Of a stretch of 64,000 bases of DNA, positions 31,227 to 47,747 are shown piece by piece. Numbering within the stretch: position 1 is the first letter of the stretch; each line of letters opens with the position of its first letter. The position numbers and the translations under genes are program-made. Source of the stretch: Pyropia yezoensis. Lineage: Eukaryota > Rhodophyta > Bangiophyceae > Bangiales > Bangiaceae. Where the stretch lies: NCBI GenBank assembly GCA_009829735.1, contig CM020618.1:32774894-32838893 (forward strand), given 5' to 3'. A model generated the notes under the pieces. It saw only the letters and a program-made list of their open reading frames with translations, made no database searches and was not told the origin of the DNA.

Positions 31227-32903
31227 ATGGGAACGATGGCAAGCCCGCCGACCCCGGTGGGCCGGAGAGCGGTGGCCGCCGCCGCCGCAGTGATGACGGC
31301 GGCGGTGGTGGCGGCGGCCGCCCCCACCACCGCCGCGGCGGTGCCCGCCGCGCTCCCCCGCCTCCCCGCGTCGGGGGGGTGGGGGGCGTGGCTCCGCCGC
31401 GCCGCTGCGCCCGACGCTGCTGCCGATGTGGTCGGCGTCGACACGGCAGCGGCACCGCCGACGCGCGGGTGGGGCCTCCACCCCACATCCCGGGTGTTTC
31501 CCTACAGCGCCCTGGCCGCCACCTACGCGGCCACCCCGGCGGTGACGGTGGACCCGACGTGCCCCAAGGCGGTCACCGTTGGCGGTGGGGGGCAGGTGGA
31601 CCCCGCCACCAACGTCCTGATCCTGCCGCTGGGGAGCATCTCGGAGGGCACCGCCCAATGCCGGGGGGGCAGCATGAAGGTGGTGCGGCTGCCCACCATC
31701 CTCGACGCGGATGCCATGGCGGCGGCGGACCTGACCGCCATGTCCGCCGCCCTCGACGCGTCCGCCCCTGCGTCATCGACGGTCAAGTCGCTGAACGCGT
31801 CGACGGCCGACGCGCTGGTGGGGTGGGACGGCGTGGAGCGCATTTGCGGGTCGTCGACCTACCCGGCCAGCACGTTTTACTTTTTCCTCGTCGCCGACGA
31901 GGTGATTGAGGTCAAGGTGGGGGGCCAGGACCGGGGGACCATCCCGACCAACCAGCAGGCCATGATCATCGCGGCGGGTGGCACCCGCATCTGTACGCTT
32001 ACGGCGGACAAGAAGGTGGCGCCGTCACCGGCGCCGTCGCCGGCGCCGTCGCCGGGACCATCACCCGCGCCGCCCCCGGCAGTGTCCCCGGCGCCCTCTG
32101 TGGCGCCTCCGTCGCCCACTGCGGAAGCGTCGCCGTCAGGGGAGCCCGAGCCGACGGGCGGGGAGGAGGTCACCCCGTCGCCGATGCCCACCGATCCCGC
32201 CGATCCCACCGAGTCGGACGAGCCGGGAGGGTCGCTGGAGCCATCCGGGAGCCCCCTCGCGACCCCCATTGTCGCCCCCGACGATGGCTCTGCGTGCTTC
32301 CCCGCCGCCGCGACCCTTCGCCGCCCGGGCGGGGAGGCGGTGACCATGGATGCCCTCCGCGTGGGCGATGACGTTGCCGTCGGCGGCGGCCACTCGTCGC
32401 GGGTCTACCTCTTCTCCCACGCAGACGAGGCGGTGGTGTCGTCCATGGTGGCGCTCACCACCGCGGGTGCGGGCACCCTCACCGCCTCGGCAGACCATCT
32501 GGTGTACGTGGCATCGCGGGATGGCCGCGACCGGACCGCCGTGGCAGCCGACACGGTGGCCACCGGGGACGTTCTCGTGTCGGACAGCGCGGACGCTGCT
32601 GCCGCCACGGTTGTGGCCGTCGAGCGGGTGCGTGCGGCGGGCCTGTATGCCCCGCACACCTACACGGGTGACCTGGTCGTCGATGGGTTTGTGGTCAGCA
32701 GCTACACCCGGCTGCTCCCGCCGGCGGTGGCCCATGCGGTACTGGCGCCGGTGCGGGCGGCGGCGGCGGCGGGGGTGCTGCCCGCCCGGCTTGCACAGGG
32801 GGGGCTGTGGGCGGGAGGGGAGACCCCCAGGCGGGCATTTGCCGCGGCGGTCGCGGCGGTGCGGGCAGCAGTGGCAGGCGTGGCAGTCAAGTCGGACCTC
32901 TGA
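31227..32903 (+). CDS. secreted Hedgehog-type Hint domain protein 1
   Basis: 558 residues. The ATG at 31227 opens a signal peptide (VGRRAVAAAAAVMTAAVVAAA); the longer frame upstream has no such feature. Residues about 75-265 form an unrecognised globular region with a few Cys (VDPTCPKAV, GTAQCRGGSM, VERICGSS, GTRICTL). A Pro/Ser/Ala and then acidic Glu/Pro linker covers about 270-350. From Cys357 a Hint (Hedgehog/intein) domain follows: SACFPAAATL with the nucleophilic Cys, MDALRVGDDVAVGGG, RVYLFSHADE, LTASADHLVYV with His424, ATGDVLV, GLYAPHTYTGDLVVDGFVVS. Hedgehog Hint domains cleave themselves at this Cys and join the N-terminal part to a sterol or release it. Here that would free the N-terminal region outside the cell or in the secretory pathway; whether sterol transfer occurs is unknown. 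A second Hint gene lies at 43.8-45.2 kb. Confidence 0.85.
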   Translation: MGTMASPPTPVGRRAVAAAAAVMTAAVVAAAAPTTAAAVPAALPRLPASGGWGAWLRRAAAPDAAADVVGVDTAAAPPTRGWGLHPTSRVFPYSALAATYAATPAVTVDPTCPKAVTVGGGGQVDPATNVLILPLGSISEGTAQCRGGSMKVVRLPTILDADAMAAADLTAMSAALDASAPASSTVKSLNASTADALVGWDGVERICGSSTYPASTFYFFLVADEVIEVKVGGQDRGTIPTNQQAMIIAAGGTRICTLTADKKVAPSPAPSPAPSPGPSPAPPPAVSPAPSVAPPSPTAEASPSGEPEPTGGEEVTPSPMPTDPADPTESDEPGGSLEPSGSPLATPIVAPDDGSACFPAAATLRRPGGEAVTMDALRVGDDVAVGGGHSSRVYLFSHADEAVVSSMVALTTAGAGTLTASADHLVYVASRDGRDRTAVAADTVATGDVLVSDSADAAAATVVAVERVRAAGLYAPHTYTGDLVVDGFVVSSYTRLLPPAVAHAVLAPVRAAAAAGVLPARLAQGGLWAGGETPRRAFAAAVAAVRAAVAGVAVKSDL

Positions 32904-33976
32904 GGCGGTCGGGGGCGCGTAATGGAGACAGAGGGAACTAGGGAGGAGGGGGAGGGTGTACGGGCGAAGGAGACGAGGCACCCTGTCTGGATTTACCATA
33001 TGTGTCTCTTATCGCCTGCTTCCGCCTCTCTGGCCGACTGGGCTACCCTGTGAGGGAAGAGGGTGACACGCTGATATGTAGAACGTGCTTGATTGACCTT
33101 TCATTTTTCTCATACGGATCCAGGACGATACAGTACAAGCACAGCGAGTGGCCTCGCTGCTGAAGCGCCCGTCTCGTTCGTGCGTGGCCGTTGGCCACGG
33201 GCCGTTTCGCGGACACCAGCAACGGCCAGCCGACGATAACACCCGGAAAGGACGCGCGTAGATCCTCGATTTCACCCACGACGGGTGCGTTGGACGCGCC
33301 TCGCGTGCTGACGAATGAGTGCTCCGTGCAAAGAAAAAAGAAGCCGCGACAAGGAATCTGTAGGAAGCTGTCCCCGATCGGCCGACAGACCCGGTGCCGT
33401 CCGCCACCACCTTGCCGGCACGTGGCCTCGCAGCAATGCCTCTGAGACAGAATCTAATTTGCCATGTCCCGCTGACGTTTTCTTCTCACCGTAAATGGGG
33501 GCTACTCCTCAGGAAGAGCGCCCATCCAGCGGTGTGGCCTTGGTGGTCCTCGCCCCCCTCGCGCGCGCGCGCGGCGACCGACACAGCCCACGGCCGACGC
33601 CCACGGCGGTTGGCGCGGGCGCCCGCCAGCTGCTGGCCGCGGCCGCTGCTGTGCACCGTGCGCCCGCCTGACGGCGAGCCCTGCACCTGCCCGTGGGTCC
33701 CCCCCTCGCCCTCGCCCTCTGCCACTGCGGATCCCTCGCGCCGTCGCGCCGCGGCTCAGGGCTCCCTGCTTGGCTGCTGCCCCCTCTCCCCCCCCCCCCC
33801 CCCCCTTTCCCGGTGCCCCGGCAGCCGTCACGCCTCCTCAGCTCCTCTCCCCACCCGCCCCCCACCCCCCCCCCCACTCTCCCCCCTCTCCCCCCCTCCG
33901 CTCACCCCCCCTGCACCCGCCAGCGTGCCACTGCCGCGGGTGCCGCGGTGCGGCGCGGCGCGGTGCACGGGCGCCC
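32904..33976. other. intergenic region upstream of the BICRA-like gene
   Basis: It includes a TGTAC at 32957-32961 shortly after the Hint stop codon, then about 500 bp of lower GC without a gene, and then C-rich sequence that probably forms the leader of the next gene. The frame of that gene is open back to 33770 with low-complexity proline-rich content only. Confidence 0.35.
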
Positions 33977-34033
33977 ATGAACGGCCGGCCAAATGGCGCT
34001 CCACCGCCGCCGCTTGGAGGGCCACGCGGCAGC

Positions 34034-34064
<31 letters not shown>

Positions 34065-37000
34065 GCGGTGGTGGGGGGGTGGGCGGTGGTGGCGGCGGCA
34101 GCGGAGGTGGCAGGGATGGGGGTGGGGGCGGTGGCGGCAGCGGCGGCGGCGGTGCGGGGACGGGGGTGCCCGACGACCTCTTTGGGGGCTTCCTGCCGCC
34201 CCCCTACGGACTGCCATCTGACGGGGCGGACCGGGCGTCGTCGGCACTGCACGAGCTGGAGGCGGTCCTCGCCACGCCGGGCGGGGGGGGCGGGAACGAC
34301 GCTGGTGCAGGCGCTGGCGGCGGCGGGGGGGGCGGGGTTAGGGGGGGTGCGGGCGGGGCGTCGGCGGTGGACGTGCCAGGGCTGGGCGGCCTCGGCAGCC
34401 TGGCGGGGCTGCTGGAGCTAGCGGGGGGGGGGGCGGTGCGGGGGGGTGGGCCCCCTGGTGGGGACGGCGCCGACGGCGGCGGCGGTGTCGGCGGTGGCCC
34501 CGGCGGCGGTGGCCCCGGCGGCGGCGGCCCCGGCGGCGGCAGCTCCCTGCTGCCCCCCCCCGCCGCGTTTCCTTTTGACGTGTCGGGCGCGCTGGAGCGG
34601 CAGCAGCTGAGCATGGCCGCTGCCGCCTACGCAGCGGCGGCGGCTCGCGGGTCCGTCGTGCCTGGTGGTGGTGGTGGCGGCGGCGGGGGCGGGGCGGCGG
34701 GGGCTCCTCTCCCCCCCCAGGCGCCCCCCCCCGCGGCGCCCTCTACATCGGGGGCGGCCGCGTCGCAGCAGCAGCAGCTGGCGATGCTCGCCGCCGCCCA
34801 ACGGCAGCAGCGCATGACGGCCAACGAGGCGGCGCTGCGGTCTGCGCTGCTCGCCCCGTCGTCCGCATCGGCGATGCAGCATCAGCAGCAAGCCGCCGCG
34901 GTGGTGGCGGCGCAGGCAGCGGCCGCGCGTCAGCAGCAGCAGCTCGGGCAGCCACCTCTGCCGCACTCGCACGGCGGAACGTCCGTGTCGGTAGCGGCGG
35001 CAGCGGCGGCAGCGGCCGCGGCAGCGGCCACGGCGCAGCAGCAGCAGCACACTGCGGTGGCGTCGGTGCAGCAGCAGCAGCAGCAGCAGCACGCGGCGGC
35101 GGCGGCGGCGGCGGCCGCAGCCGCCGCAGCGGCCCACCACCGCCAGGTGGCGGCACAACAGCAGCAGCAGGCGCAGGCGCAGGCGGCGGCGGCAGCAGCG
35201 GCACAACAGCACATGCTGGCGGCCGCCGTCGCAGCCACGGGGAGTGGTGCTGGCGGCCGGCAGTCGTCTCTTCCTGGTGGTGGTGGCGGCGGCGGCGGCG
35301 GCGGTGGGGGCGCTCCCACTCCCCCGCCGGCCGCGTCGCCGACACGGTCGGCTGCGCGGTCGGCGGGCTCATCGGGGACCGCGGCGGCGGCGGCGGCGGC
35401 GGCGACGGCGGCTTCGCCGCCAAAGGTCGTGCCGCCCAAGCCCAAGAGCCACAAGTCCAAGGCCAAGCAGGCGGCGGCGGCCAAGGCGAAAAAGGCGGCG
35501 GCAGAGGCGGCCGCAGCCGCGGCCGCCGCGGGACTGCCCCCACCGGGGAAGGCCAAGGGGGGCAAGGGGGGCGCCAAGGGCGGCGCCAAGGGTGGGGGGG
35601 ACAAGAAGAAGGGGGGCAAGGCCGCGGCGGCCCCTGCTGCATCAGCAGCGGTAGTCTCAGACCCGGGAAAGCCCGCCCCGGCGGGTTTGCCCACTGGCCA
35701 CGCCCCCTCCCACCTGCGCCTTGCGCCGGCACCGCAGGCAGCGTACGGCGCGTCGGGCGGCGCGTCCAGCGGACCCGGGGGCGCCCTCCCCCCGCCACCT
35801 CCCCCACCTCGCCCGCCCGGTGCGCCTTCCCCTCCCTCTCATCCCGTTTCTAGCGCCCCTCGCGGCGGCGCGCCGCCAGGGTTGTCCACGGGGGCGGTGG
35901 GGGGGCTGGCACCCGCGGGGGTCACCCCGCTTGCGAGTGGCATGCCGTCCCCGCAGCAGCAGGCGGCGGTGGCGCAGCAGGCGGCCATCCTGCTGCAGCA
36001 GCAACAGATGCAGCAGCAGCAGATGATGCTCCAGCAGCGTCAGCATATGGCAGCGGCCGCTGCGGCGGCGGCTGCTGCGGGGTCATCACCTCCTTCGTCG
36101 GCGGCTGGGCCGCCCTATGATCCCACGGGCGGTGGCGCCGGGACGGGCGCCATACCTGGTGGCGGTGGCGGTGGCGGCAGCGGCGGCGGCGGCGGCAGCG
36201 GTGGTGGTGGCGTCGGCAGCGGTGGTGGTGGTGTGGGTATGTACACTCCCGAACAGCAACAGCTGCTGCAGGCGCAGTTGCAGCAGCACCACCTGTCACG
36301 TTTGGCCTCTTCGTCTGGTCTGAATGTGCAGCAGCTGCAGCTGCTGCGGCAACAGCACCTGCTGCAACAGCAGCAGGCCTACCAGCAGCAGGTGCTACTC
36401 GCACAACAACGTCATCAAGTTCAACAAGCTGCGGCACAGGCGGCGCAGGCGGCGCAGCTACAGCAGCTGCAAGAGGCGCGGATGCTGGCGGCGGGAGGAG
36501 GGGGGCAGGCGTCCCCGCCACTGGCTGCAGCTGCTGCGCCAGTGTCGTCGGCAGCTACAGCACCATCCCCCCCACTACAACCGCATCAACAGCAACAACA
36601 GCAGCTACAACAACAGCAGCAGCAGCAGCAACAGCAGCAACAACAACAACAACATCAACAGCAGCGGCAACCGCAACTGCAAGGGCAACAAGGACAACCA
36701 CCACATGGACAACAACCATCGGCGCAGCTGCAGCAGCAGCTCACCCAGCAGGCGGCTGCTGCGCAGCAGTCGCAGCTGATGGTCAACCACCAGCGGCAAC
36801 AACAGCTGCTGCAGGCACAAGCGACGCAGGCGGCACAGTTGCAGGCGCAGCAGGCACAGACAGCCGCCACAGCCGCCGCGGTGGCGGCACAGCAGCAGCA
36901 GCAGCAGCAGCAACAACAACAACAACAACGTCAGCAACAGCAAAAGCAGCAGCAGCAACAGCAGCAGCAGAAGCAGAAGCAGAAACAACTGCAGCAACGA

Positions 37001-38470
37001 CAGCAACTACAACAACAGCAGCAAGCCGGGACAACGTCGGGGGGGGCAGTGGCGCCCCCTCCACAGCGGCCATTGGTAGGGACGCCCGCCGGAGCGTCAC
37101 CTGCCGTTGCGCCGATGCGGTCCGCGGCTGCGGCGGCGGTAGCACCGACGCCGCCCCCCCCCGCCGGAGGCAGCCGCCCTCCCGCCGACGCGCGCAAGTC
37201 CGCGGGGGGTGCGGGTCCCGCCGCCGCGGGGAGCGGGCGGCCCAAACCGCCACCCGGCGGAGCGGCTAAGGCACGACCGCCCGGCAGCGGCGGCGGCGGT
37301 GGCGGCCGGCCCCCGCCTGCGGCCGGCGCGCGCCAGCCGTCGGCGGCTGCCGCGGCGGCGGCCGCGGCTGCCGCGGCGACTGCGGCAGTGGCAGCGGCGG
37401 CGGCTCGGCAGGCGGGTGGCGGCGGCGGGTCGGCGTCTGCCAAGGCGCCTGCCGGGGCGGGTGCGCCACCCGTGGCGGCAACGGGGCGGGGGGCGGCTGG
37501 CGGCGGTGCCGCCGGTGGCGGTGCGGGTGGCGGTGGTGGTGGCGGTGGTGGTGGCAGCGGCGGTGGTGGCGGACGGCTGCCGCCAGTGGGGGGGGTGGCC
37601 AAGCCCGCCGCCCCCGCGCGCGTGCGGGTGCGCAACCGGGTGGGCGCCCGCGCCCGGGCGCGGGCGGCGGCCGCTGCCGCTGCCGCCGCGGGCCTGCCCG
37701 TGAAGGGCGCCGCTGGGACAACAGCCGGGGGTGGTGGCGGCAGCGGAGGCAGCGGCAGCGGCGGAAGCCGCGGCGGTGGCGGCAGCGGGGCGGGCGGCAA
37801 GGCGTCCGCCACCACGGCTGGCGGCGGGGGCGCCGCCCCCCCCCCGACCACCACCCCCACCACCCCCGCGGTTGTGCTGTCGCCCGCAGCCGCGGCGCTG
37901 GCAGCGACGCTCGACCGGAAGCGGCGCAAGCTGGCCGACTCGCCCCTGCGGGACCAGCTGCGGGCGCTCGCGCCCGAGTCGCACCGGCCGTTTGAGTCGC
38001 GCATCGACGCGTGGCAGCGGCTGGTCGGCTACCACGTCTTCCTGCCCGTACCCCCGGCGGGGGGGGCGGAGGGCGGGGCGGACTGGGACGCCCGCCTCGC
38101 GCGCGTTGCGGGCGGCTATGGCGCGTGGCTGGCGCGCACGCAGGCGGCGTTGCCTGCAGTGCTTGCCGACTGGGACGCGGGGGGAGGGGGGGCGGCCGCC
38201 TCTGCTGCTGCCGGCGGTGGCGCCGACACCGGCGCCCCCACCGGCGCTGCCACAGGCGGCGGCGGCAGCCGCGGGGGCAGCGGTGGTGGCAGTGGCAGTG
38301 ACGGCAGTGGCGGTGGCGGCGGTGGTGGCGGCGGCGGTGGCGGTGGCGGTGGTGGCGTTGCCAATGGGGGGGGCGCTGGCGCCCCTCCGGCGGGGGCGGC
38401 GGCGTCGCCGGCATCGTCGCCGCCACCCCCCCTGCCCGTGGCGTTCGCCGCCGCCACCACCGCGGACGAC

Positions 38471-38519
<49 letters not shown>

Positions 38520-38695
38520 GCGATGGCCCACCGTTTGTGACGGGCACGGTGCTTGGGGTGGACGAGGCGCTGCTGCTGGCGGCGCTCCAGTGGGGGGACG
38601 AGGTGGCCCATGCGGGACGGCCCGCTGCCGCCGCGGCGGGCGCGCCGACGGCGGTCATGGGGGGGGGGGGGGGGGGGGGGGGGGCACGGCAGTGA
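33977..38695 (+). CDS. GLTSCR1/BICRA-domain protein, SWI/SNF subunit-like
   Basis: A single-exon gene for about 1,572 residues, dominated by poly-Gly, poly-Ala and poly-Gln tracts. The ATG at 33977 starts MNGRPNGAPPPPLGGPRG; the open frame before it is merely proline-rich. Near residue 470-510 Lys/Ala-rich basic stretches occur (KPKSHKSKAKQ). Around residue 1215-1240 comes ARVRVRNRVGARARARA. The only globular part is at about 1312-1405: DRKRRKLADSPLRDQLRAL, then HRPFESRIDAWQRLVGYHVF and a helix-like tail. PF-x-S-x-x-D-A-x-x-RL-x-x-YHVF is the signature of the GLTSCR1 (BICRA/BICRAL) domain, whose proteins are subunits of non-canonical BAF chromatin remodellers; plants have related BRIP subunits. 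By inference this is a nuclear SWI/SNF component. The C-terminus ends in a poly-G tract in DNA (about 38660-38680) where length errors would alter the last residues. Confidence 0.7.
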
Positions 38696-38926
38696 CAAAG
38701 GCGGCGGCCGCTGGGTTTGGGGGGCGCGGGGGGGGGGGGTGGGTTGGTAGCGCGATGCTATTGTGTACATACAGGGCGCCCTGCGGGGGATGCTCCCGCC
38801 AGGGGCGCCTGTTTTTTTTTTTTGTGCCTGCCCCCACCCGCGGCGACTGGCCGACCCCGCCGGCCGTCGCAGCAGAGCAGCATAGGATGCAGCAGAGGTC
38901 TGTCGCGCACCGAGCCGCCCGCTTTG
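38696..38926. other. 3' flank of the BICRA-like gene
   Basis: Contains TGTAC at 38764-38768, about 70 bp after the stop codon, and a poly-T run near 38812-38823, both plausible parts of a transcript end. No gene. Confidence 0.3.
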
Positions 38927-40240
38927 ATGCCACGTGGCTACACGCGCACCGGTCTGTGCGACCCAGCCCCCGCCGCCGCTACAGCGCGCGCCCGTGTTGA
39001 CCGCCGCCCCCGGCGCGCCCACCGCAAGCTGCGGCCAGCGGCCGCTCCTCCCCCACCCCCATTGCGTCTCCCCACCCTCGCGTCCGCCTCGCCATCTCCG
39101 CCCTCCCTCTCCCTCCCCCCCCCCCGCCTCCTTGTCGAGCCCCCCGCCGCCGGTCATGCGTACCCCCCCCCCCCCCCTCCCCCCGGGGAGACCTTCACCC
39201 CCCCCCCGCCGCCCTCCCCGCCCCCTCCCCTGGATGTGGCGCCCACCCCCCCCCCCCCGCGGATACTACGGCGGGGGCCCCCCGTGACGGTGCTGCTGCT
39301 GCCGCCGCCCACCCCGTGGGCGGCGGCGCCCACCCCCACCCTCGTCGCGGTTGGCGTCGTCCGTGACACCGCCGGTGGCGGCGGCGGCCCACACCGACCG
39401 CCCTCTGCGTGGGCGGCGGCGGCCCCGGCGGCGGTCGTTGCCGCTGTCACCGCCGCCGCCGCCGCCGCCGCTGCCGCTGCCGCCGCTGCCGCCGGCCAGA
39501 GCAGAGGGGCGGGCGACCCCGACGGCGACGACAACGGCCACCCGGACGATGGCGGGGAGGAGGTGGAGGTGCTGGAGCTGCCGTCGCCTCAACCGGCGGC
39601 GCCTGCGGCGTCGGCGTCGTCGGCATCTTGGGCGACCGCATGGGGGGGCTCGTCCGCATCAGGTGCAGCAGCAGCGGCAGGGGGGGAGGGGAATGCCCCT
39701 GGCTGTGGGCGGCAGGAGGGCGGCGGGCGCGGGGAGGCGGGGCCCCGGCTCGCCCTTACCATTGCCGGCGTGCCTGTGGCGCTCCACCCCACCGACGGCG
39801 TGGCGGTGGCGCGGATGGTGGCCGCCGCGTACGTGGCCGCGTTGGTCGACCAGGCCGCCGCCGCCGCCGCCGACGCTGCCGCCCCCCCCGCCGCCAGCGA
39901 CACCACCGCCGCCGCCGCCGGCACCGCCGCGGCCGCCGACGCGGCGGCGGCAGCAGCCGCCGCCGCCCCCGCGGCAGTGGCGCCGGCGGTCGCCGCCGCG
40001 GCCGCAGCCGAGGCGGCCCTCCGCGCCGCGTCTGCCCGCCGGTCGGCGGCGGTGGCGCGGGCGGCGACGCTCGCCGACGTGGTCGTGGGCATCAAGCGGG
40101 GGTGGCTGGCGCGCCTGACCGCCGCCGCCCCGGCTGCCGCCGCCATCGCCGTCGCCGCCGCCAGCGGTGCCGCCGCCGTCGCTGACGCCACCGCTGCGCC
40201 GGGTGCGGTCGACGGGGAGGAAGAGGAGAGCCCGTGGTAG
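38927..40240 (+). CDS. Ala/Pro-rich protein of unknown function
   Basis: 437 codons from the ATG at 38927; the frame is open to 38717, so the start is a choice. The first half is proline-rich. The middle has poly-Ala and an acidic patch (DDGGEEVEVLELPSP) that resembles a SUMO-interacting or acidic interaction motif. The more ordered part at about 275-330 reads RLALTIAGVPVALHPTDGVA then VARMVAAAYVAALVDQ. Another Ala-rich helical stretch follows, with LADVVVGIKRGWLARL near the end and a final EEEESPW. I do not recognise a family. It lies between two genes on the same strand with 460 bp to the next ATG. Ala-rich composition is common in this window, so coding status is moderate only. Confidence 0.4.
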   Translation: MPRGYTRTGLCDPAPAAATARARVDRRPRRAHRKLRPAAAPPPPPLRLPTLASASPSPPSLSLPPPRLLVEPPAAGHAYPPPPPPPGETFTPPPPPSPPPPLDVAPTPPPPRILRRGPPVTVLLLPPPTPWAAAPTPTLVAVGVVRDTAGGGGGPHRPPSAWAAAAPAAVVAAVTAAAAAAAAAAAAAAGQSRGAGDPDGDDNGHPDDGGEEVEVLELPSPQPAAPAASASSASWATAWGGSSASGAAAAAGGEGNAPGCGRQEGGGRGEAGPRLALTIAGVPVALHPTDGVAVARMVAAAYVAALVDQAAAAAADAAAPPAASDTTAAAAGTAAAADAAAAAAAAAPAAVAPAVAAAAAAEAALRAASARRSAAVARAATLADVVVGIKRGWLARLTAAAPAAAAIAVAAASGAAAVADATAAPGAVDGEEEESPW

Positions 40241-40701
40241 GCAGCGGGGGTGGTTGGGTGGGTCGGCGGGCAAGGCCGGTACTGTCCTCAGGAGTGCGTA
40301 CAGTTCATACCGTACTGTAAACATAGATTGTAAGCGCTTTGCCCCTCGGAGATCAAAAGCCGCGGCTGACACCCGCACCGTCAGCGCGGCGCATGGGCCG
40401 AGCAGCCTTAACGGCCGCGACGCCAGGCGCGTTCAGAGTGCACGCCCCTCTTCCCCCACTTGTTTTTCTCACCCAGGCAAGCCCCCCCCCTCCCCCCTGG
40501 TTTCCCTCTGCCGCGGGGGTCGGCTTGCCCGTCTTGGCCGTGGCGGGCGGGCCCCCTCGCTCCTCCTCCTCCCCGCCCCCCGCCCCCCCCCACGCACAAT
40601 CCTGCCGCTACCGCCCCTACTCGCCTCCCCCGCCCCCCCCCCTCCCTCCTTCCCTGCCTCCCTCACCCCACCCCCCTTTCCTTGCGTCTGTCTTTGCATA
40701 T
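40241..40701. other. intergenic region upstream of the LMBR1-like gene
   Basis: A lower-GC patch at 40280-40345 includes GTACAG and CGTACTGTAAAC, possibly the 3' end of the preceding transcript. The rest is C-rich and leads to ATATATGG at the next start codon. The frame is open back to 40339 but no leader-like content supports an earlier start. Confidence 0.3.
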
Positions 40702-43476
40702 ATGGAAACGGAAACGGTCGCCGTCCTCACCGCCACCGCCGCGGCGATTGCCGTGGCGGGCGGCGCCACCGCCGTCGCCGCTGCGCGGGGCGTCTCGCCG
40801 CCTGTGCGGGTGGCGGTCGCGGCGGCGGCGGCGGCGGCGCTCCTCCTCCCGGCCCTCCTGCCGGTAGACGTCGCCCTGACGGTGGCGCGCCGGTGTGTGG
40901 TGGCCGAGGCGGCGGTGGCCGCCGCAGTGGCAGAGGCGCAGGCGGCGGCCGCGGTGACGGCAGAGGCGGCAGCGGCGACGGGGGGGGGGACGGGGGCGGC
41001 AGAGGCCGCCGTCGGCGCCCCCACCTCCCCGCCAGTGGCGGCCGCCGCCACCGCCATCCCGTTTGCCCTGGTGACCGAGGCGGGCGGGGCCACCGCCACC
41101 GCCACCGCCACCGCCACCGCCACCGCCACTGCTACCGCATCCACCACTGCTGCTCCCGCACTTGGCGAGCCCAGCGCCGCGCCGCCGCCGCCGCTACCCG
41201 TCGCGGTCACGGCGACGCCAACACCAGCGGCGACTGCGCCCGCTGTCGTGCGGTGGTCCTCCCGCCAAGTGCCCGACGACAGCGTTGCGATTGCGTCACC
41301 CGCCGACCCCACCGCCGCAGGGGGCGACGACGGGGCGGGTGGCTCCCCTGTTGCGGCGGCGGCGGTGACGGCAGCGTCCACACCCTCCCTTCCCTCTCCC
41401 CCCTCCCCCCCAAGCCGCTGTTCCGGCCTGTGGGATTCCTCCCCCCGGCTGCAGCTAGCATCCCCCCTTCTCGCCGCCACCCGCGGGGCGTTTGCCACCG
41501 CCACGGGCGCGGCGTGGGTGGTGCTCCCGCTGGTTGCGTCGTACGAGGCGGCGGGCGGGTGGACGGCGCGGTCCCGCCTGGCCTCGGCTGTGCGCGCCAA
41601 CGCGGTTCTGGCGGCGGTCGCCGCGGTAGCCGCCGCCGCCGGCGTGGCTGCGGTCGCCGTCTCGACGGGCGCCTCGGCGGGGGCGGTCGCCGCGGCCGCG
41701 TCAGCGGGCGTGACGGCCGTGTCGGTGGGGGGGGGGCTCGCCGCGCTGGGCGTCGGCGCCGTCCTCCTCCCGCGGGACCTGTGGCGGGCGGGGTCCCCGG
41801 CGGCGGCGGCGGCTGCGGCCTACTGTACCGTGGCAGCCGCGGCGGAGCGGCTTGAGGACGCCAACGGGGGGCTTGCGCGTGTGCTTGGCCGCGTCGAAGC
41901 CGCGCGCCGTCGCCGTCGGGACCGGCGCGCGGCGCGACGGGGGCCGGGGGAGAGGGAGGGGGGCAGCTCGTCGTCCCTGCCGGCCACCAGCGGTGGGGGG
42001 GGGGGGGGGGGCGACCGTGCGGCGGTGGTGGATGCCGAGGTCGAGGCGCTGCTGGCGGCGGCCGCCACCCACGCAGGGGGTGTCCTCACCCGCCTCCCCG
42101 CCGCGGCTGCTGAGAGCGCCGACGCCGACGCGGACGCGGAGGCCGAGGCGGCGGCGGTGGGTGGGCCAGACGCAGCCGTCATGGCCGCCACCGACGCGGT
42201 GCTGGTGCGGATTCGGGAGGACCTTCGCGCGGCGGGGACGGAGCGCCTCAAGGCTGCCGCAGCCTACACCGCCGCCGTCTCTCGGGCGTCGCGGCTAGAG
42301 GTGCTCGCCATTGCCCGCGGCAGTGGCAGCGGCGCGGCCGCCGCTGCCGAAGGCGGCGGCGGCGGGGACCTCCCCCTTTCCCCGCCTCCCTGGGCCGACC
42401 GCGTGGCGGCCGCGGCGGGGCCCGCGCTGGCGAGAGTCACCGCGGTCGCCGCCGCCGCCGCGTCGGTCGTACTGTTAGTCTCTGAGGTGTCCCTGTGGCC
42501 CGCCCTCCTCGGCGTCGACGCGTCACCTCTTTCGTGGGCGGTCCACCGTGGGCTGGGAGGCGGCGGTGGCGGCGGCGGCGGCTCCCGCCGGAGCACCTCC
42601 CCTGCCTCCCCCCCGCTGCCGCCATCGTCGGTCGCGTCGGCGGTGACCGCGGCGGGGGTGCTTGCGTACGGCCTGGGCGTCACCGCCTACGCGGCGCGGC
42701 GGGCGGCCGCGACGCGACCGCTCACCGAAGCGGTGGCGGGCGCCACGGGGGGCGCCTCCCTGGCCGCCACCGCCCTCTGCGCGTGCCGCTTTGTCCCCGC
42801 CCTCGCCGTCAATGCGCTCGCGGTGGTGGGCGAGAGCGGTCCCGGCGCGGCCGCGGCGGGCCGCGCGGCCGCAGCCGCGGCGGTGGCGGCAGCAGCGGCA
42901 GCCTCGAGTGGTGACGGCAGCGGCGCCTTCCCCCCCCCCGCGGCCACCACAGCGGCGGCGGCGGCAGCGGCGGCTGTGGCGCCCGTCGTGGCGGCGCTGC
43001 AGCGCACGACGCCCACCCTCGGCCGCACGGCCGTGTCGGTCCTCCTCCCTGCGGTGGTGGTGCCCGCCGCGGCGGCGGCCGCCGCCGCGCGCACCCGCCT
43101 CCCGTCTGTCGCCCACCGGCTGGCCGCCGCGGTGGCGGGGGCGGGGTCGGCGGCCGCGCTCGGCGCGCCGCTGGGGGGCGTGGGGGGAGCTGCCGCCGCC
43201 GCCGCCGCCGCGGCGGGCACCACCACCGCAGGGAGGAGGACCGACGCTGCGCGCGCGGCCGCCGCCGACGCTGTCGCCGCCGCGGGGCGGGGACACGTGG
43301 CACGGGAGCGGCGGCACGCCGCGCGGGTGGCGGCGGCGGGCGGGGGGGCGGCGGGCGGGGGGGGCGGAGCGGCGGCGGCGGCCGCCGCCGCCGCCATTGC
43401 CGCCGCTGCTTCCCGGCGGGCTGCACCGCTGCTGCCAGTCGACGGAGCGGGGCAGGCGGGCGGGTGGGGGGCGTAG
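40702..43476 (+). CDS. large multi-pass membrane protein, LMBR1/LMBD1-like
   Basis: 924 residues with an Ala-rich bias that hides similarity. The N-terminus METETVAVLTATAAAIAVAG begins a first membrane helix; a second ends ALLLPALLPVDVALTVARR, recalling the P-x-D motif after helix 2 in LMBR1-family proteins. About residues 250-330 give ATGAAWVVLPLVASYEAAGG and a further hydrophobic stretch. GGGLAALGVGAVLLPRDLWR then leads into an AERLEDANGGLARVLGRVEA coiled segment and a long charged loop (about 390-560). Three to five more hydrophobic stretches follow. The order helix pair, third helix with polar exit, long cytosolic coil, then C-terminal helices fits the LMBR1 family, which includes the lysosomal cobalamin transporter partner LMBD1. 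This assignment rests on pattern rather than strong identity. Low-complexity loops, including a (CACCGC)n microsatellite at about 41095-41135, are inserted between helices. Confidence 0.45.
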   Translation: METETVAVLTATAAAIAVAGGATAVAAARGVSPPVRVAVAAAAAAALLLPALLPVDVALTVARRCVVAEAAVAAAVAEAQAAAAVTAEAAAATGGGTGAAEAAVGAPTSPPVAAAATAIPFALVTEAGGATATATATATATATATASTTAAPALGEPSAAPPPPLPVAVTATPTPAATAPAVVRWSSRQVPDDSVAIASPADPTAAGGDDGAGGSPVAAAAVTAASTPSLPSPPSPPSRCSGLWDSSPRLQLASPLLAATRGAFATATGAAWVVLPLVASYEAAGGWTARSRLASAVRANAVLAAVAAVAAAAGVAAVAVSTGASAGAVAAAASAGVTAVSVGGGLAALGVGAVLLPRDLWRAGSPAAAAAAAYCTVAAAAERLEDANGGLARVLGRVEAARRRRRDRRAARRGPGEREGGSSSSLPATSGGGGGGGDRAAVVDAEVEALLAAAATHAGGVLTRLPAAAAESADADADAEAEAAAVGGPDAAVMAATDAVLVRIREDLRAAGTERLKAAAAYTAAVSRASRLEVLAIARGSGSGAAAAAEGGGGGDLPLSPPPWADRVAAAAGPALARVTAVAAAAASVVLLVSEVSLWPALLGVDASPLSWAVHRGLGGGGGGGGGSRRSTSPASPPLPPSSVASAVTAAGVLAYGLGVTAYAARRAAATRPLTEAVAGATGGASLAATALCACRFVPALAVNALAVVGESGPGAAAAGRAAAAAAVAAAAAASSGDGSGAFPPPAATTAAAAAAAAVAPVVAALQRTTPTLGRTAVSVLLPAVVVPAAAAAAAARTRLPSVAHRLAAAVAGAGSAAALGAPLGGVGGAAAAAAAAAGTTTAGRRTDAARAAAADAVAAAGRGHVARERRHAARVAAAGGGAAGGGGGAAAAAAAAAIAAAASRRAAPLLPVDGAGQAGGWGA

Positions 43477-43813
43477 GTTGGCCGCGAGGTCGCCCCCCCC
43501 CCCCCCCCCTCCTAGATATGGTATGCGTGAGCCCACCGCCCGTGGCGGGGACGCGGGTTGGGCACTTCCCGTCTGGCGCGCTCCCGCCTGCCAGCCCCAA
43601 CAGCGGGGTCCGCTGATAACGGCGGCGCGCTGGGGGGGGAACTGGGCGGGATGAGGCGAACGCCACCCTCTCCCTCTTCCCTGGTCGGGTTGCGGCAGAC
43701 TCTTTTCTTAATGTTTTCCTCGCAACGTCGCTCCTCTCTTCCCCACCACCCCCCCCCCACCACCATCTCCCCCCCGCCCCCGTCTTCACCCCCCCCCCCC
43801 TCCCACCCCCCAC
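43477..43813. other. short convergent intergenic region
   Basis: Lies between the stop codons of two convergent genes. It is C-rich with long homopolymer runs (near 43493-43511 and 43751-43812) that may separate the two transcript ends. Nothing else is seen. Confidence 0.35.
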
Positions 43814-45247
43814 TCACCACTTGAGCACGCGGTGGGGCAGCCAGCGGTGGACCCCCCCCCCACCCCCCCGGAGCCACCCGTCCGGCCCAAGCCCCCATGC
43901 TCCCCCCGTCCCCCCCCCCACCCCCGCTGCGGCGGCCCACCAGCGGACGGGCACGAGGAGGGCGCGGCCCACCCCCACCCCCACCGCCGTCGTCCACGTG
44001 GACGCCCACACCCCCCCCACCAGCAGGTCTCCGTCAGCTGCAGCGGTGTGGGGGTTGTACAGCCCCACCCCGGCCGTCCGCCCCACCGCCGTGACGGGCA
44101 GGGGGGCGCCGGTGGGCGACCGGAGGGTGGTGCCGACGGTCAGGTCCGCGGCGGGCGTCAGCGTCCACCCCGTCACGCATGGCGTGCCGCACGTGGTGTC
44201 GTTGGCGCCGCCGCCGCCGCTGCCGTTGCCGCCTCCGCCGTCGACGCTGGTGGCCGTGTAGACAAGGTGGCCCGGCGAGAGCGTCAGCCGCCCCCCCCCC
44301 GCCGTCGAGACGGTCACCATCGTCGTCACCGCAAAGGGGTCCGCGTGGGAAAACGCCACCACCCGCGACGCACGGCCGCCGCCGGTGGCGACCCGGTCGC
44401 CCAGCCGCAGGTCCGCCATGGCCGTCGCGACGGCCGCGGGCGCGCGCGCGGTGTCGCGCCCCCCCCCCGGCGGGTACACCCACACCACCGCGTCGCCGGG
44501 GAAGCACGCGGCGTCGTCATCGTCGCCGCCGCCGCCGTCCCCGTCGGCGGCGGCGTAGACGCACGACGCGCCTCCGTCCGCGGTGGGCGCCAGCGCCACC
44601 GCCGCCACCTCCCCCGGCGGCACTGTCACCCGCGTGGTGCCATTCGCGCCCGACGCGGAGAAGGAGAGGGGCGCGGCGCGGAGCACCAGCACCACCCCGT
44701 GGGCGGCACACGCGTCCAGCGGGTCGGCGGGCGCACCCCCTTGCAGCCGCTCGCGGGGTTCCCCCACAAGCACCCCCGCCGCCCCCGCGTCGGCACCGGC
44801 GGCACCCCCACCACCCCCACCGTCCCCTCCCGATGAGGTCAACGCGAAGGCAGTGGCAAGCCAGGTGCCCCCCCCCAGGCCGTCGTACGTCGCTGCGTCG
44901 GCCGTATCGTACAGGCGCGCCGTCGCGGCAGCGGCGGCCCGCAGCGTCAGGCCGCCGGAGCACGCGCCGTCGTCATCCGAGGCCACCACAACCCCCCCAT
45001 CCCCCCCCTCACCTCCACCGCCACTTCCGCCGCCGGTGCCGCTGGGGGCGGAGGGGAGCCGCAGGGACGGCGGGCACCCCGAGCCGTCCTGGCCAGGGGC
45101 AAGCACAAACGTCGGGCGGGCGAGGAGGGTGGCCGCCTGCGTTGCGGCGGTGCGGGGGGCGTCTGCGCCCTCCGCGGTGGCCGCCGTGGATGCTGCGGCA
45201 CCCGCAAAGAGGACGACGACCGCCACCGCTGACGCCACCGTCGCCAT
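43814..45247 (-). CDS. secreted Hedgehog-type Hint domain protein 2
   Basis: 477 residues from the ATG at 45245-45247, which starts MATVASAVAVVVLFAGAAAS, a signal peptide; 46 further upstream codons are basic and not leader-like. Residues about 30-240 form an unrecognised N-terminal region with Cys in SGCPPSLRLP, GACSGGLTL, LDACAAHGVVLVL and GGASCVYAAADG. From Cys248 a Hint domain follows: AACFPGDAVVWVYPPGG, MADLRLGDRVATGGGRASRV, VAFSHADPF, LTLSPGHLVYT with His327, VGTTLRS, VGLYNPHTAAADGDLLVGG. The layout matches the Hint protein at 31.2 kb, and both share RV-x-x-FSHAD, but the N-terminal halves are not obviously alike and this copy lacks the long Pro-rich linker. Expected to autoprocess at Cys248. 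It is convergent with the LMBR1-like gene and divergent from Sec61 alpha. Confidence 0.85.
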   Translation of the reverse strand: MATVASAVAVVVLFAGAAASTAATAEGADAPRTAATQAATLLARPTFVLAPGQDGSGCPPSLRLPSAPSGTGGGSGGGGEGGDGGVVVASDDDGACSGGLTLRAAAAATARLYDTADAATYDGLGGGTWLATAFALTSSGGDGGGGGGAAGADAGAAGVLVGEPRERLQGGAPADPLDACAAHGVVLVLRAAPLSFSASGANGTTRVTVPPGEVAAVALAPTADGGASCVYAAADGDGGGGDDDDAACFPGDAVVWVYPPGGGRDTARAPAAVATAMADLRLGDRVATGGGRASRVVAFSHADPFAVTTMVTVSTAGGGRLTLSPGHLVYTATSVDGGGGNGSGGGGANDTTCGTPCVTGWTLTPAADLTVGTTLRSPTGAPLPVTAVGRTAGVGLYNPHTAAADGDLLVGGVWASTWTTAVGVGVGRALLVPVRWWAAAAGVGGGTGGAWGLGPDGWLRGGGGGVHRWLPHRVLKW

Positions 45248-46319
45248 GGCAGCGGTCGCACCACGCGCCAAGTGGGAACGGCAACCTTGACGCCTGCGGC
45301 TTGAGCGACGCGCAGACCCGCCGGCGGGGCGCCATTTTGTTACGGCGGCCGCCATGGCCGCGCTACACGTCGGGGCCAAGTGCAAAGCGGGGGGGGGGTG
45401 GGGGGATGGGAAGGGGACGGGAGGGGCGATCCGGGGAAAGCAAACCTGGCGAAGCGGAGGGGAGAAGAAGGGAACTGGAGGAGAAGAGGTGGATTGGGGA
45501 CGGATTCAGGCTGACAAGGAAAAGGAGGGGCGGGGCAGTCCCTTGCGTCGACCGCCACGGCGATGGTGATGGTCGTCGTAGGGTTGGGGGGCAGGCTGTC
45601 AGAGGTGGCCGTTTCTGGTGGGTGTGCCCGACAGGGCGGTGTGTTGCGCAGAGGGGGGGGGGGGTGCTGCAGAGCAGAGAGGGGAGCCGTCCCACGTGGG
45701 GGGCGGGCGACGTCGGCGCGATACGTTTGTGGCACACAGTGGCAACCCCGCCTCGCGGGGGTTTCCAGGAGCGGCACGCTTAATCCGGACTGGATGAGGT
45801 TGGCGTCAGGCACAAGGGGGTCATCATCTGGACTTGTCCCAACTCTAGAGAAGTGCTTCCGATGGAGCAGACTTCAGTCTTACTCTGGAATTCATTGAGA
45901 TCAGCAGTCGCCAAATCCACATCCTCCGCGTCTCGTTGCCACTTCAATTTGCTGACAGCGTTTAGTGGTTCAATCACCAGGTCGGCACTCTTTGTCCGGT
46001 CACATTACAGCGAGGTCCCCACCGTCAGCAGAACGGGCCGCCGCCGTAGTCTGCGCCTGTAGATTGACTCGGCCATCGCCATCCCCACTTGGCCGCCACC
46101 TGCGCACCCCCGGGCGCCCGCGCTTCCCTCGTGGCCGGTACGTCGCCCCCTGCCCGCGTCCATCGTCGCCCACCTCCTGCCCGCGGTGCCCGTGCTGCGT
46201 CACCGTCTGGTGGCGCCACCTCCCCCCCGCTCTTCATTCACGTTGCATTCTCTTTCCCCAACCCGCCACCACCACTGTCTGCCTGGCGGAGCGCGCGCGT
46301 CGCGCGTGGGGAGGCCACC
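45248..46319. other. divergent intergenic region between Hint 2 and Sec61 alpha
   Basis: Shared upstream region of two divergent genes. A lower-GC island at about 45780-46010 stands out. On the - strand it encodes a 65-codon frame (IEPLNAVSKLKWQRDAED) faintly like a reverse-transcriptase connection segment, which is too short to call. The last 250 bp before 46320 are C-rich leader. The Sec61 frame is open back to 46089 but lacks family similarity there. Confidence 0.35.
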
Positions 46320-47747
46320 ATGGGGTTCAAGCTGCTGAGCCTGGTGCGGCCGTTCATGCCGCTGCTCCCAGAGGTGGAACAGCCGGGCAAGAAAATCATG
46401 TTCAAGGAGAAGGTGCTGTGGACAGTGACGACCCTGCTCATCTACCTGGTCTGCTGCCAGATTCCCCTGTACGGTGTCAAGAACACCAAGAGCTCCGATC
46501 CCTTTTACGCCCTCCGCGTGGTGCTCGCCGCGTCGAACCGGGGAACGCTGATGGAGCTGGGTATCTCGCCCATTATCACGGCCGGTTTGATTATGCAGCT
46601 GCTGGCGGGGACGCGCATCATTGAGGTGGACGGCTCCTCGAGGGAGGACCGGGCGCTCTTTTCGGGCGCCCAGAAGCTGGTGGGCATCCTCATTTCTCTT
46701 GGGGAGGCGTGTATTTACGTGTGGTCGGGCATGTACGGAGACCTGAAGGTGCTGGGCTGGGGTAACGCCCTCCTCATCATCACCCAGCTGTTTGTGGCGG
46801 GGATGCTGGTGCTGCTGCTGGACGAGATGCTGCAGAAGGGCTTTGGCCTGGGGAGCGGCATCTCCCTGTTTATCGCGACCAACCTGTGTGAGACTGTCAT
46901 CTGGTCGGCGCTGTCGCCGATGACGGTCAACGTGGGGCGCGGCGTTGAGTTTGAAGGCGCCTTCATCTCGCTCTTTTACTTGCTCCTGACGCGGTCGGAC
47001 AAGATCCGAGCTCTGCGCGAGGCCTTTTTCCGGCCCGAGCTGCCCAACGTGTCGAACGTGCTGTCCACCTTTGTCGTGTTTGCCGTGGTGATCTACTTCC
47101 AGGGCTTCCGCGTGGACCTGCCGGTCAAGAGCTCCAAGATGCGCGGGCAGCAGGGCACGTATCCCATCAAACTGTTCTACACGTCCAACATGCCCATCAT
47201 CCTGCAGACCGCCCTCGTGTCCAACCTCTACTTCCTGTCGCAGATGCTGTACCGCCAGTACCCGACGAACATCCTGGTCAACCTGCTGGGCCGGTGGCGC
47301 ACGTTCAGGGACTCGAGCCACATGGTGCCCGCGGGGGGCCTCGCGTACTACATCTCCCGCCCGCCGACGGTGCTGGCGCTGGTGCAGGACCCTGTGCGCG
47401 CGTTCACATACGTGGCATTTGTGCTTGCCGCCTGTGGCCTGCTCTCTAAGTACTGGATCGAGGTGTCGGGGTCGAGTGCGCGCGATGTGGCGCGGCAGCT
47501 GCGTGACCAGCAGATGACGCTCAAGGGCCACCGCGAGACGTCGCTGGTCAAGGAGCTCAATCGGTACATCCCAACGGCCGCGGCTTTTGGCGGCATGTGC
47601 GTCGGGATGCTGACCATCCTTGCCGACTTCCTGGGTGCCATTGGCTCGGGCACGGGTATTTTGCTGGCCGTCACGATCATCTACCAGTACTTCGAGATCT
47701 TCTCGAAGGAGACTGCGAACGAGAGTGGTCTCATGTTCTTTTCATAG
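46320..47747 (+). CDS. SEC61A: Sec61 alpha, ER protein-conducting channel
   Basis: 475 residues, the normal size for Sec61 alpha (about 475). The ATG at 46320 lies in a perfect GCCACCATGG context and starts [19 protein letters not shown], the conserved N-terminus. Ten membrane helices are expected; landmarks are [20 protein letters not shown] with QIPLYGV (helix 1 and plug), [19 protein letters not shown] (helix 2), [14 protein letters not shown], the cytosolic loop [14 protein letters not shown]-like sequence with [35 protein letters not shown], and [20 protein letters not shown] at the end. The protein forms the heterotrimeric translocon in the ER membrane for secretory and membrane proteins. 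Single exon here. Conservation is strong and the call is firm. It is the best evidence that the window is eukaryotic nuclear DNA. Confidence 0.98.

Follow-up and report, generated by a model that had tools for sequence, protein, structure and literature searches.

A Hedgehog-type Hog tail on different predicted secreted proteins of the red alga Pyropia yezoensis: a possible self-cleaving module for C-terminal lipid attachment

What would a Hedgehog-type autoprocessing tail do in a seaweed? The question is raised by two genes of Pyropia yezoensis, here termed A and B, that lie in a 64,000-nucleotide stretch of DNA (the window; GenBank assembly GCA_009829735.1, contig CM020618.1, positions 32,774,894 to 32,838,893 of the forward strand) and encode proteins ending in a Hog, that is, a Hint domain followed by a C-terminal adduct-recognition-like region. 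Genome-wide, one such tail is found on clearly different kinds of predicted secreted cargo. We propose, with a probability of ∼0.5, that the Hog would cleave itself from its cargo and leave a sterol or another lipid attached to it, perhaps in place of a glycosylphosphatidylinositol (GPI) anchor. The features of the two genes, in window coordinates, are as follows.

31227-32903, + strand: gene A, Hog protein of 558 residues plus stop (open reading frame, hydropathy-chosen ATG, Pfam Hint)
31512..32009, + strand: four-Cys N-terminal cargo domain of gene A (leave-one-out profile, alignment)
32010..32294, + strand: Pro/Ser/Thr- and Asp/Glu-rich linker of gene A, preceding the Hog (sequence)
32295..32900, + strand: Hog of gene A, Hint plus C-terminal adduct-recognition-like region (phmmer, alignment of 57 genes)
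32295-32297, + strand: predicted catalytic Cys357 codon of gene A
32418-32420, + strand: His398 of gene A, at the site of fly D46 (alignment to the fly Hint)
32496-32498, + strand: His424 of TxxH of gene A
43814-45247, - strand: gene B, Hog protein of 477 residues plus stop (open reading frame, Pfam Hint 2.2e-11)
44546..45124, - strand: N-terminal region of gene B, possible divergent four-Cys domain (profile scores)
43817..44506, - strand: Hog of gene B, starting at Cys248 and containing FSHAD and SPGH (Pfam Hint, alignment)

The gene coordinates and the positions of Cys357 and Cys248 given in a preliminary description of the window agree with the open reading frames, the predicted starts and the Pfam Hint matches (PF01079; 8.7e-25 and 88 bits for A, 2.2e-11 and 44.2 bits for B, at a curated cut-off of 29.7). 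As described there, ACFP opens the Hint domain of both proteins, and both have FSHAD, a His adjoining LVY, a Cys-bearing N-terminal part and a hydrophobic, signal-peptide-like start (judged by hydropathy instead of SignalP, in a proteome rich in Ala). The Hog forms the C-terminal end in each case, and the two Hogs have 75 of 188 aligned residues in common. When the Hog of gene A was compared with solved structures by phmmer, the matches were to Drosophila Hedgehog (6TD6, 2.8e-10; 6TYY, 5.1e-9; 1AT0, 1e-7), with an alignment that extends beyond the Hint, up to chain residue 429 of 6TD6. A Pfam scan of A and B returned no family other than Hint, and the Hedgehog signalling domain (HH_signal) was absent from both.

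The count of Hint genes that the preliminary description called for was obtained by a PF01079 search of the P. yezoensis genome: 84 matches were merged to ∼76 genes, which are distributed over all three chromosomes (27 on contig C1, 28 on C2 and 21 on C3). Seven fall inside 0.93 Mb around the window, and when the genes were placed at random, some stretch of this length held at least seven in 0.34% of 5000 draws. The sequences of 57 of the 76 genes (L followed by a number where one has to be named) were read and compared, the other 19 being mostly lower-scoring. All 57 match the Pfam Hint at E 0.01, a hydrophobic start is present in 49 (hydropathy alone), and the median pairwise Hog identity is 43%. 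The suggestion of a Hint family on diverse cargo is supported for the genome, with its distinct cargo kinds, but not for the A/B pair.

The commonest cargo, in over half of the 57 genes, is a domain of ∼160 residues with four Cys (pattern CP...C...CG...C-x-Y). An alignment of 32 cores, gene B among them, was prepared and a leave-one-out test was run on 22 of them; 21 of the 22 reached between 32.8 and 155.7 bits, above all of their shuffles. Against a profile of the domains of 30 other genes, the N-terminal domain of gene A (Cys at protein positions 112, 145, 207 and 256) scored 83.4 bits (E 1e-27), a value that none of the shuffles attained (998 full, 1000 Cys-fixed), and by this measure gene A clearly carries the domain. 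The N-terminal region of gene B reached 11.6 bits, a score equalled or exceeded in 6 of 1000 full shuffles and in 6 of 998 with the Cys fixed; it was missed in two of eight rounds of an iterated profile (best E-value 0.0025), and a single-sequence search returned no four-Cys paralogue. Its 247-residue N-terminal part contains exactly four Cys with family-like spacing, and its 12.9 bits exceed the scores of 22 of 25 N-termini placed outside the family. Those scoring above it in this left-out set (L052, 30.5 bits; L024, 23.3 bits; L057, 16.8 bits) may be further members. Kinship of gene B with the four-Cys proteins is favoured because the Hints nearest to its Hog on a tree of the Hint domains are those of L032 and L034 (support 85/86), which bear the domain, and gene B possibly carries a divergent form of it. 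The earlier view that the two N-termini are unrelated is not confirmed: A has the common four-Cys domain, and B may have it too.

A first four-Cys profile was contaminated by signal peptides and acidic linkers, and was dropped in favour of the trimmed leave-one-out test. When the genome was searched with one core (L015), each of the 16 hits fell within a Hint gene or a short distance upstream of one; no gene with the four-Cys domain only was seen at that sensitivity. The four-Cys profile gave no match among PDB structures up to E 1. In L014 (C2:4596179-4597917), the four-Cys domain and the Hint lie in separate open frames of 790 and 449 residues, a split that may come from an intron, from a frameshift or from faulty assembly.

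Other genes of the family carry different cargo. Pfam matches over the cut-off were obtained for carbonic anhydrase in L039 (1.2e-26), imelysin in L019 (3.5e-21) and fasciclin in L043 (5.2e-19). A DOMON match in L020 (8.4e-7) fell slightly short of the Pfam cut-off in that scan, and matches that were weak or below threshold were recorded in L010 (FG-GAP), L055 (copper mono-oxygenase domain), L061 (extensin-like stretch) and L044 (DOMON); kelch had no Pfam match among the 57 genes. Viewed from the cargo side, an in-frame downstream Hint was present in three of four DOMON frames, three of 16 carbonic-anhydrase frames tested (out of 58 matches, with same-frame repeats and short fragments dropped) and one of 17 fasciclin frames (26 matches, counted by eye). 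In addition, there are dozens of short, scattered frames whose match is confined to roughly the last 60 carbonic-anhydrase positions (mostly profile positions 187-253); they resemble a repeat family carrying a piece of the gene.

The Hint tree was built from 54 of the 57 rows; L038, L045 and L056, with no Cys block found near their match, were left out. On this tree the fasciclin gene L043 is the sister of the four-Cys gene L033 (support 100/95), and L010, with an N-terminal part that is not four-Cys, is nested within a four-Cys group (support 99/90). The starred branches of the tree force at least six changes of cargo label. The count of changes is inflated, because the label "other" takes in the truncated or split genes L014, L025 and L029, but the placements of L043/L033 and L010 are independent of them. 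The tree shows cargo exchange, with the Hog swapped between cargoes. Clustering of the four-Cys label on the tree was considered and rejected (17 changes vs. a shuffled mean of 17.3).

Within clustered pairs, the Hog DNA and the N-terminal core differ markedly in identity and in synonymous divergence (dS). The values are 98.9% (dS 0.027) vs. 66.5% (dS 0.965) for L027/L028, 95.8% (dS 0.098) vs. 52.6% (dS 1.54) for L032/L034, and 92.8% (dS 0.274) vs. 54.8% (dS 0.929) for L005/L060; the contrast is weaker with L005/L008, at 97.7% (dS 0.058) vs. 88.3% (dS 0.345). The nonsynonymous divergence (dN) of the four-Cys cores in clustered pairs is 0.33 to 0.62 in six of seven, and 0.07 in the seventh. The block of identity extends in L032/L034 from two bases before the Cys codon to ∼70 bases before the stop, and in L027/L028 from a point at most ∼85 bases ahead of the Cys codon to approximately the stop; outside these blocks identity drops to background. 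Among the 57 genes, 13 pairs have at least 80% Hog DNA identity over 350 bases. L038 (C1, 10.75 Mb) is 96% identical in DNA to the distant L060 (31.9 Mb), with unmatched upstream DNA. Protein-level selection alone is disfavoured because the dS of the Hog is low, and the pattern suggests gene conversion or cassette transfer as the simplest account of the near-identity limited to the Hog. L038 itself (C1:10749895-10750323) is a stray Hog piece without the Cys block, either a dispersed cassette copy or a pseudogene. The acidic linkers of L005, L008 and L060 are alike in part (83-90% in the best stretches); they consist of Asp-rich repeat runs that give the impression of being calcium-binding.

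The residues expected of an active Hog are largely retained. Cys-Phe is kept in all 54 aligned rows that contain the block; of the three rows without it, L056 has CFG farther upstream of its match, L045 shows CLLG, a divergent form that lies beyond the aligned piece, and in L038 there is no such block. The T/S of TxxH (30 T, 27 S) and its His are present in 57/57. A His occupies the position equivalent to fly D46 in 56 of 56 aligned rows, with H398 of gene A aligned to D46 of the fly Hint, in place of the Hedgehog-type Asp. In animals the Asp at this site is required for step 2, the transfer to cholesterol, according to one review (PMC4695875), and fly D46H is stated in another to function with a wider range of sterols (PMC8529194). 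In the region after the Hint (motifs J and K), S491 and T494 are each kept in 56/57 and R510 in 48/57, and V501, A502, A504, L506, A507, P508 and R510 are each present in at least 40 of the 57. Clustered Hog pairs, with L038 left out, have dN/dS ratios between about 0.05 and 0.46.

In other organisms, some of the fasciclin, DOMON and carbonic-anhydrase proteins are GPI-anchored. The P. yezoensis genome gave no match to PIGA or Gaa1, in searches with weak controls (none matched for Gaa1, one below the cut-off for PIGA), and no match to Peptidase_C13, the family of GPI8, with a control matched in one bacterium only; because of the latter result, neither GPI8 nor legumain is detected. STT3, another enzyme of the endoplasmic reticulum, was found at 7e-98 in the same genome. 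A 2013 survey did not find PIG-A in those red-algal genomes that it analysed and considered that red algae seem to be without GPI anchors (PMC3797821), and cholesterol is reported in Pyropia tenera. The lack of a match to the GPI families, the survey, the cholesterol and the GPI-anchored relatives of the cargo lead to the proposal that the Hog may supply a C-terminal lipid where GPI is missing.

The course that we envisage is as follows. The precursor would be secreted, and the Hog Cys, aided by T/S-x-x-H, would attack the preceding peptide bond to form a thioester. An alcohol would then resolve the thioester as acceptor; the likeliest is a membrane sterol, which would be activated by the invariant His at the position of fly D46. 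The cargo would come free bearing a C-terminal lipid, in many cases on a stalk rich in Pro/Ser/Thr or Asp. The Hog would be a portable C-terminal lipid-anchor module for many extracellular proteins of an alga without a detected GPI pathway; in tandem copies, gene conversion would keep the module uniform and the cargo would diverge. In our estimate, (i) self-cleavage of the Hog precursors is probable; (ii) a sterol or another lipid is somewhat favoured as the acceptor; and (iii) substitution of the Hog for GPI is a tentative suggestion. A wider reading, which we regard as less likely than not, is that in red algae, apparently devoid of GPI anchors, the Hog is a general route by which secreted proteins are fixed to sterol or wall, as a portable cassette that gene conversion has spread and homogenised over rapidly changing cargo and that has a conserved His permitting acceptors other than cholesterol.

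Several observations weigh against self-cleavage with lipid attachment in place of GPI. The Hog is not a universal anchor, because 13 of 16 carbonic-anhydrase frames and 16 of 17 fasciclin frames lack it; Hogs are also present in organisms having GPI anchors, and the negative searches for PIGA, Gaa1 and Peptidase_C13 count for less with controls as weak as those given above. Hedgehog has a Gly just before the Cys, whereas the residue at this position is Gly in 0 of 54 seaweed rows. At the position of the second Cys in Hedgehog motif J, only 7 of 57 have a Cys, and mutation of this residue in animals inhibits both steps, according to a review (PMC4695875). The conservation counts are biased to intact genes, because the 19 unread genes are mostly weaker-scoring.

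The replaced motif J Cys and the missing Gly would also fit a Hog that cuts only, in which water resolves the thioester and soluble cargo is released into wall or medium, without lipid. GFP fusions of alpha-CA5 and alpha-CA9 of this alga, isoforms that are unmatched here to the Hog-bearing genes, were extracellular in tobacco (PMC7423979), which points the same way. The retained region after the Hint, with seven residues each in at least 40 of 57 genes, and the His at the D46 site in 56/56 argue against this, and we consider it unlikely. Retention of the tail after the Hint speaks likewise against a sortase-like transfer of the cargo to a hydroxyl of cell-wall polysaccharide or to some other non-sterol alcohol, and a sugar acceptor is, to our knowledge, without precedent. 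Such a transfer is improbable, although cargo of wall type is present (fasciclin in L043; the extensin-like match in L061, below the Pfam cut-off) and fly D46H, according to a review, takes sterols besides cholesterol (PMC8529194).

The processed N-terminal domains might instead be secreted signalling ligands, as in animals. The diversified four-Cys domain (dN 0.33 to 0.62 in six of seven pairs), found by the one-core search only together with a Hog (16/16), would suit that role; carbonic anhydrase, imelysin, DOMON and fasciclin are not ligand-like. HH_signal had no match in the genome, in a search in which no control matched either. The preliminary description had taken the organism to be without animal Hedgehog signalling, which agrees with this negative result as far as a search lacking a matching control allows. 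Patched-family proteins are represented by three frames in the genome, but such proteins serve also as sterol transporters. We give the ligand alternative little weight. That the tails are degenerate and inactive Hints on ordinary secreted proteins would be in line with L038 (no Cys block), L045 (CLLG for CFP) and L056 (match limited to profile positions 77-162). It is very improbable, given that the catalytic residues are kept in divergent copies and that the Hog dN/dS stays within the range reported above.

The preliminary description regarded the two genes as the best candidate for an undescribed system. This is too strong, because a 2008 paper already described Hog proteins of red algae, two open reading frames of P. 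yezoensis among them, and proposed that an ancestral Hog protein attached a sterol-like moiety (Burglin 2008, PMC2362128). The genes analysed here share with those red-algal proteins the Hog domain, N-terminal parts with conserved Cys, predicted signal peptides (in many groups) and a replaced motif J Cys, and go beyond that set in number (∼76 genes), in enzyme and adhesion cargo, in the homogenised Hog DNA and in the D46-site His in 56/56. In Cyanidiophyceae, another red-algal expansion, each species has between 2 and 17 Hog genes, mostly subtelomeric, with kelch cargo and a Thr/Pro/Ala-rich linker, and their function is given as unknown (PMC9812998, PMC13353863). The P. yezoensis Hogs, in contrast, carry several kinds of cargo, none of them kelch in the 57 genes, and lie on three chromosomes.

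As in the warthog and groundhog proteins of C. elegans, lineage-specific N-terminal domains precede the Hog tail. Nematodes have many genes with the N-terminal domain only, according to PMC2362128, whereas all 16 hits of the four-Cys core were at Hint genes. Compared with Hedgehog ligands, A and B lack HH_signal and have His for Asp at the D46 site. If lipidation occurs as proposed, the process would resemble GPI anchoring in that a C-terminal signal is removed and a lipid put in its place, but it would be self-catalysed, with no transamidase, and is not a member of that system.

Neither "hedgehog" nor "GPI" occurs in the main text of the genome papers of P. yezoensis (PMC7423979) and Neoporphyra haitanensis (PMC8752119). 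In one literature library, "Hog domain" with "GPI" retrieved only annelid Hedgehog pathways, Shh secretion and inteins, and among the papers retrieved with "hedgehog" and "Pyropia" only the Cyanidiophyceae paper, by its title, treats algal Hog genes. Within the literature searched, the family size, the list of cargo, the family-wide His at the D46 site, the homogenisation limited to the Hog and the link to missing GPI appear to be new. The role of Hog proteins outside animals has been open since their discovery, and the carbonic-anhydrase fusions, with a known activity, offer direct access to autocleavage and lipidation in a seaweed that is cultivated. If the Hog replaces GPI, this would explain how red algae keep proteins at the cell surface, and the lipidation of Hedgehog could have had its origin in such a role outside signalling.

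Three further frames of the window, all on the + strand, are near the two genes. A long Gln/Gly/Ala-rich frame (33770-38695) had no Pfam match at 0.001, and one stretch of it resembles the GLTSCR1/BICRA domain. An LMBR1-like membrane protein (40654-43473; Pfam 2.3e-18) lies between A and B, and Sec61 alpha (46314-47744; SecY 1.5e-71, with the plug domain) adjoins gene B.

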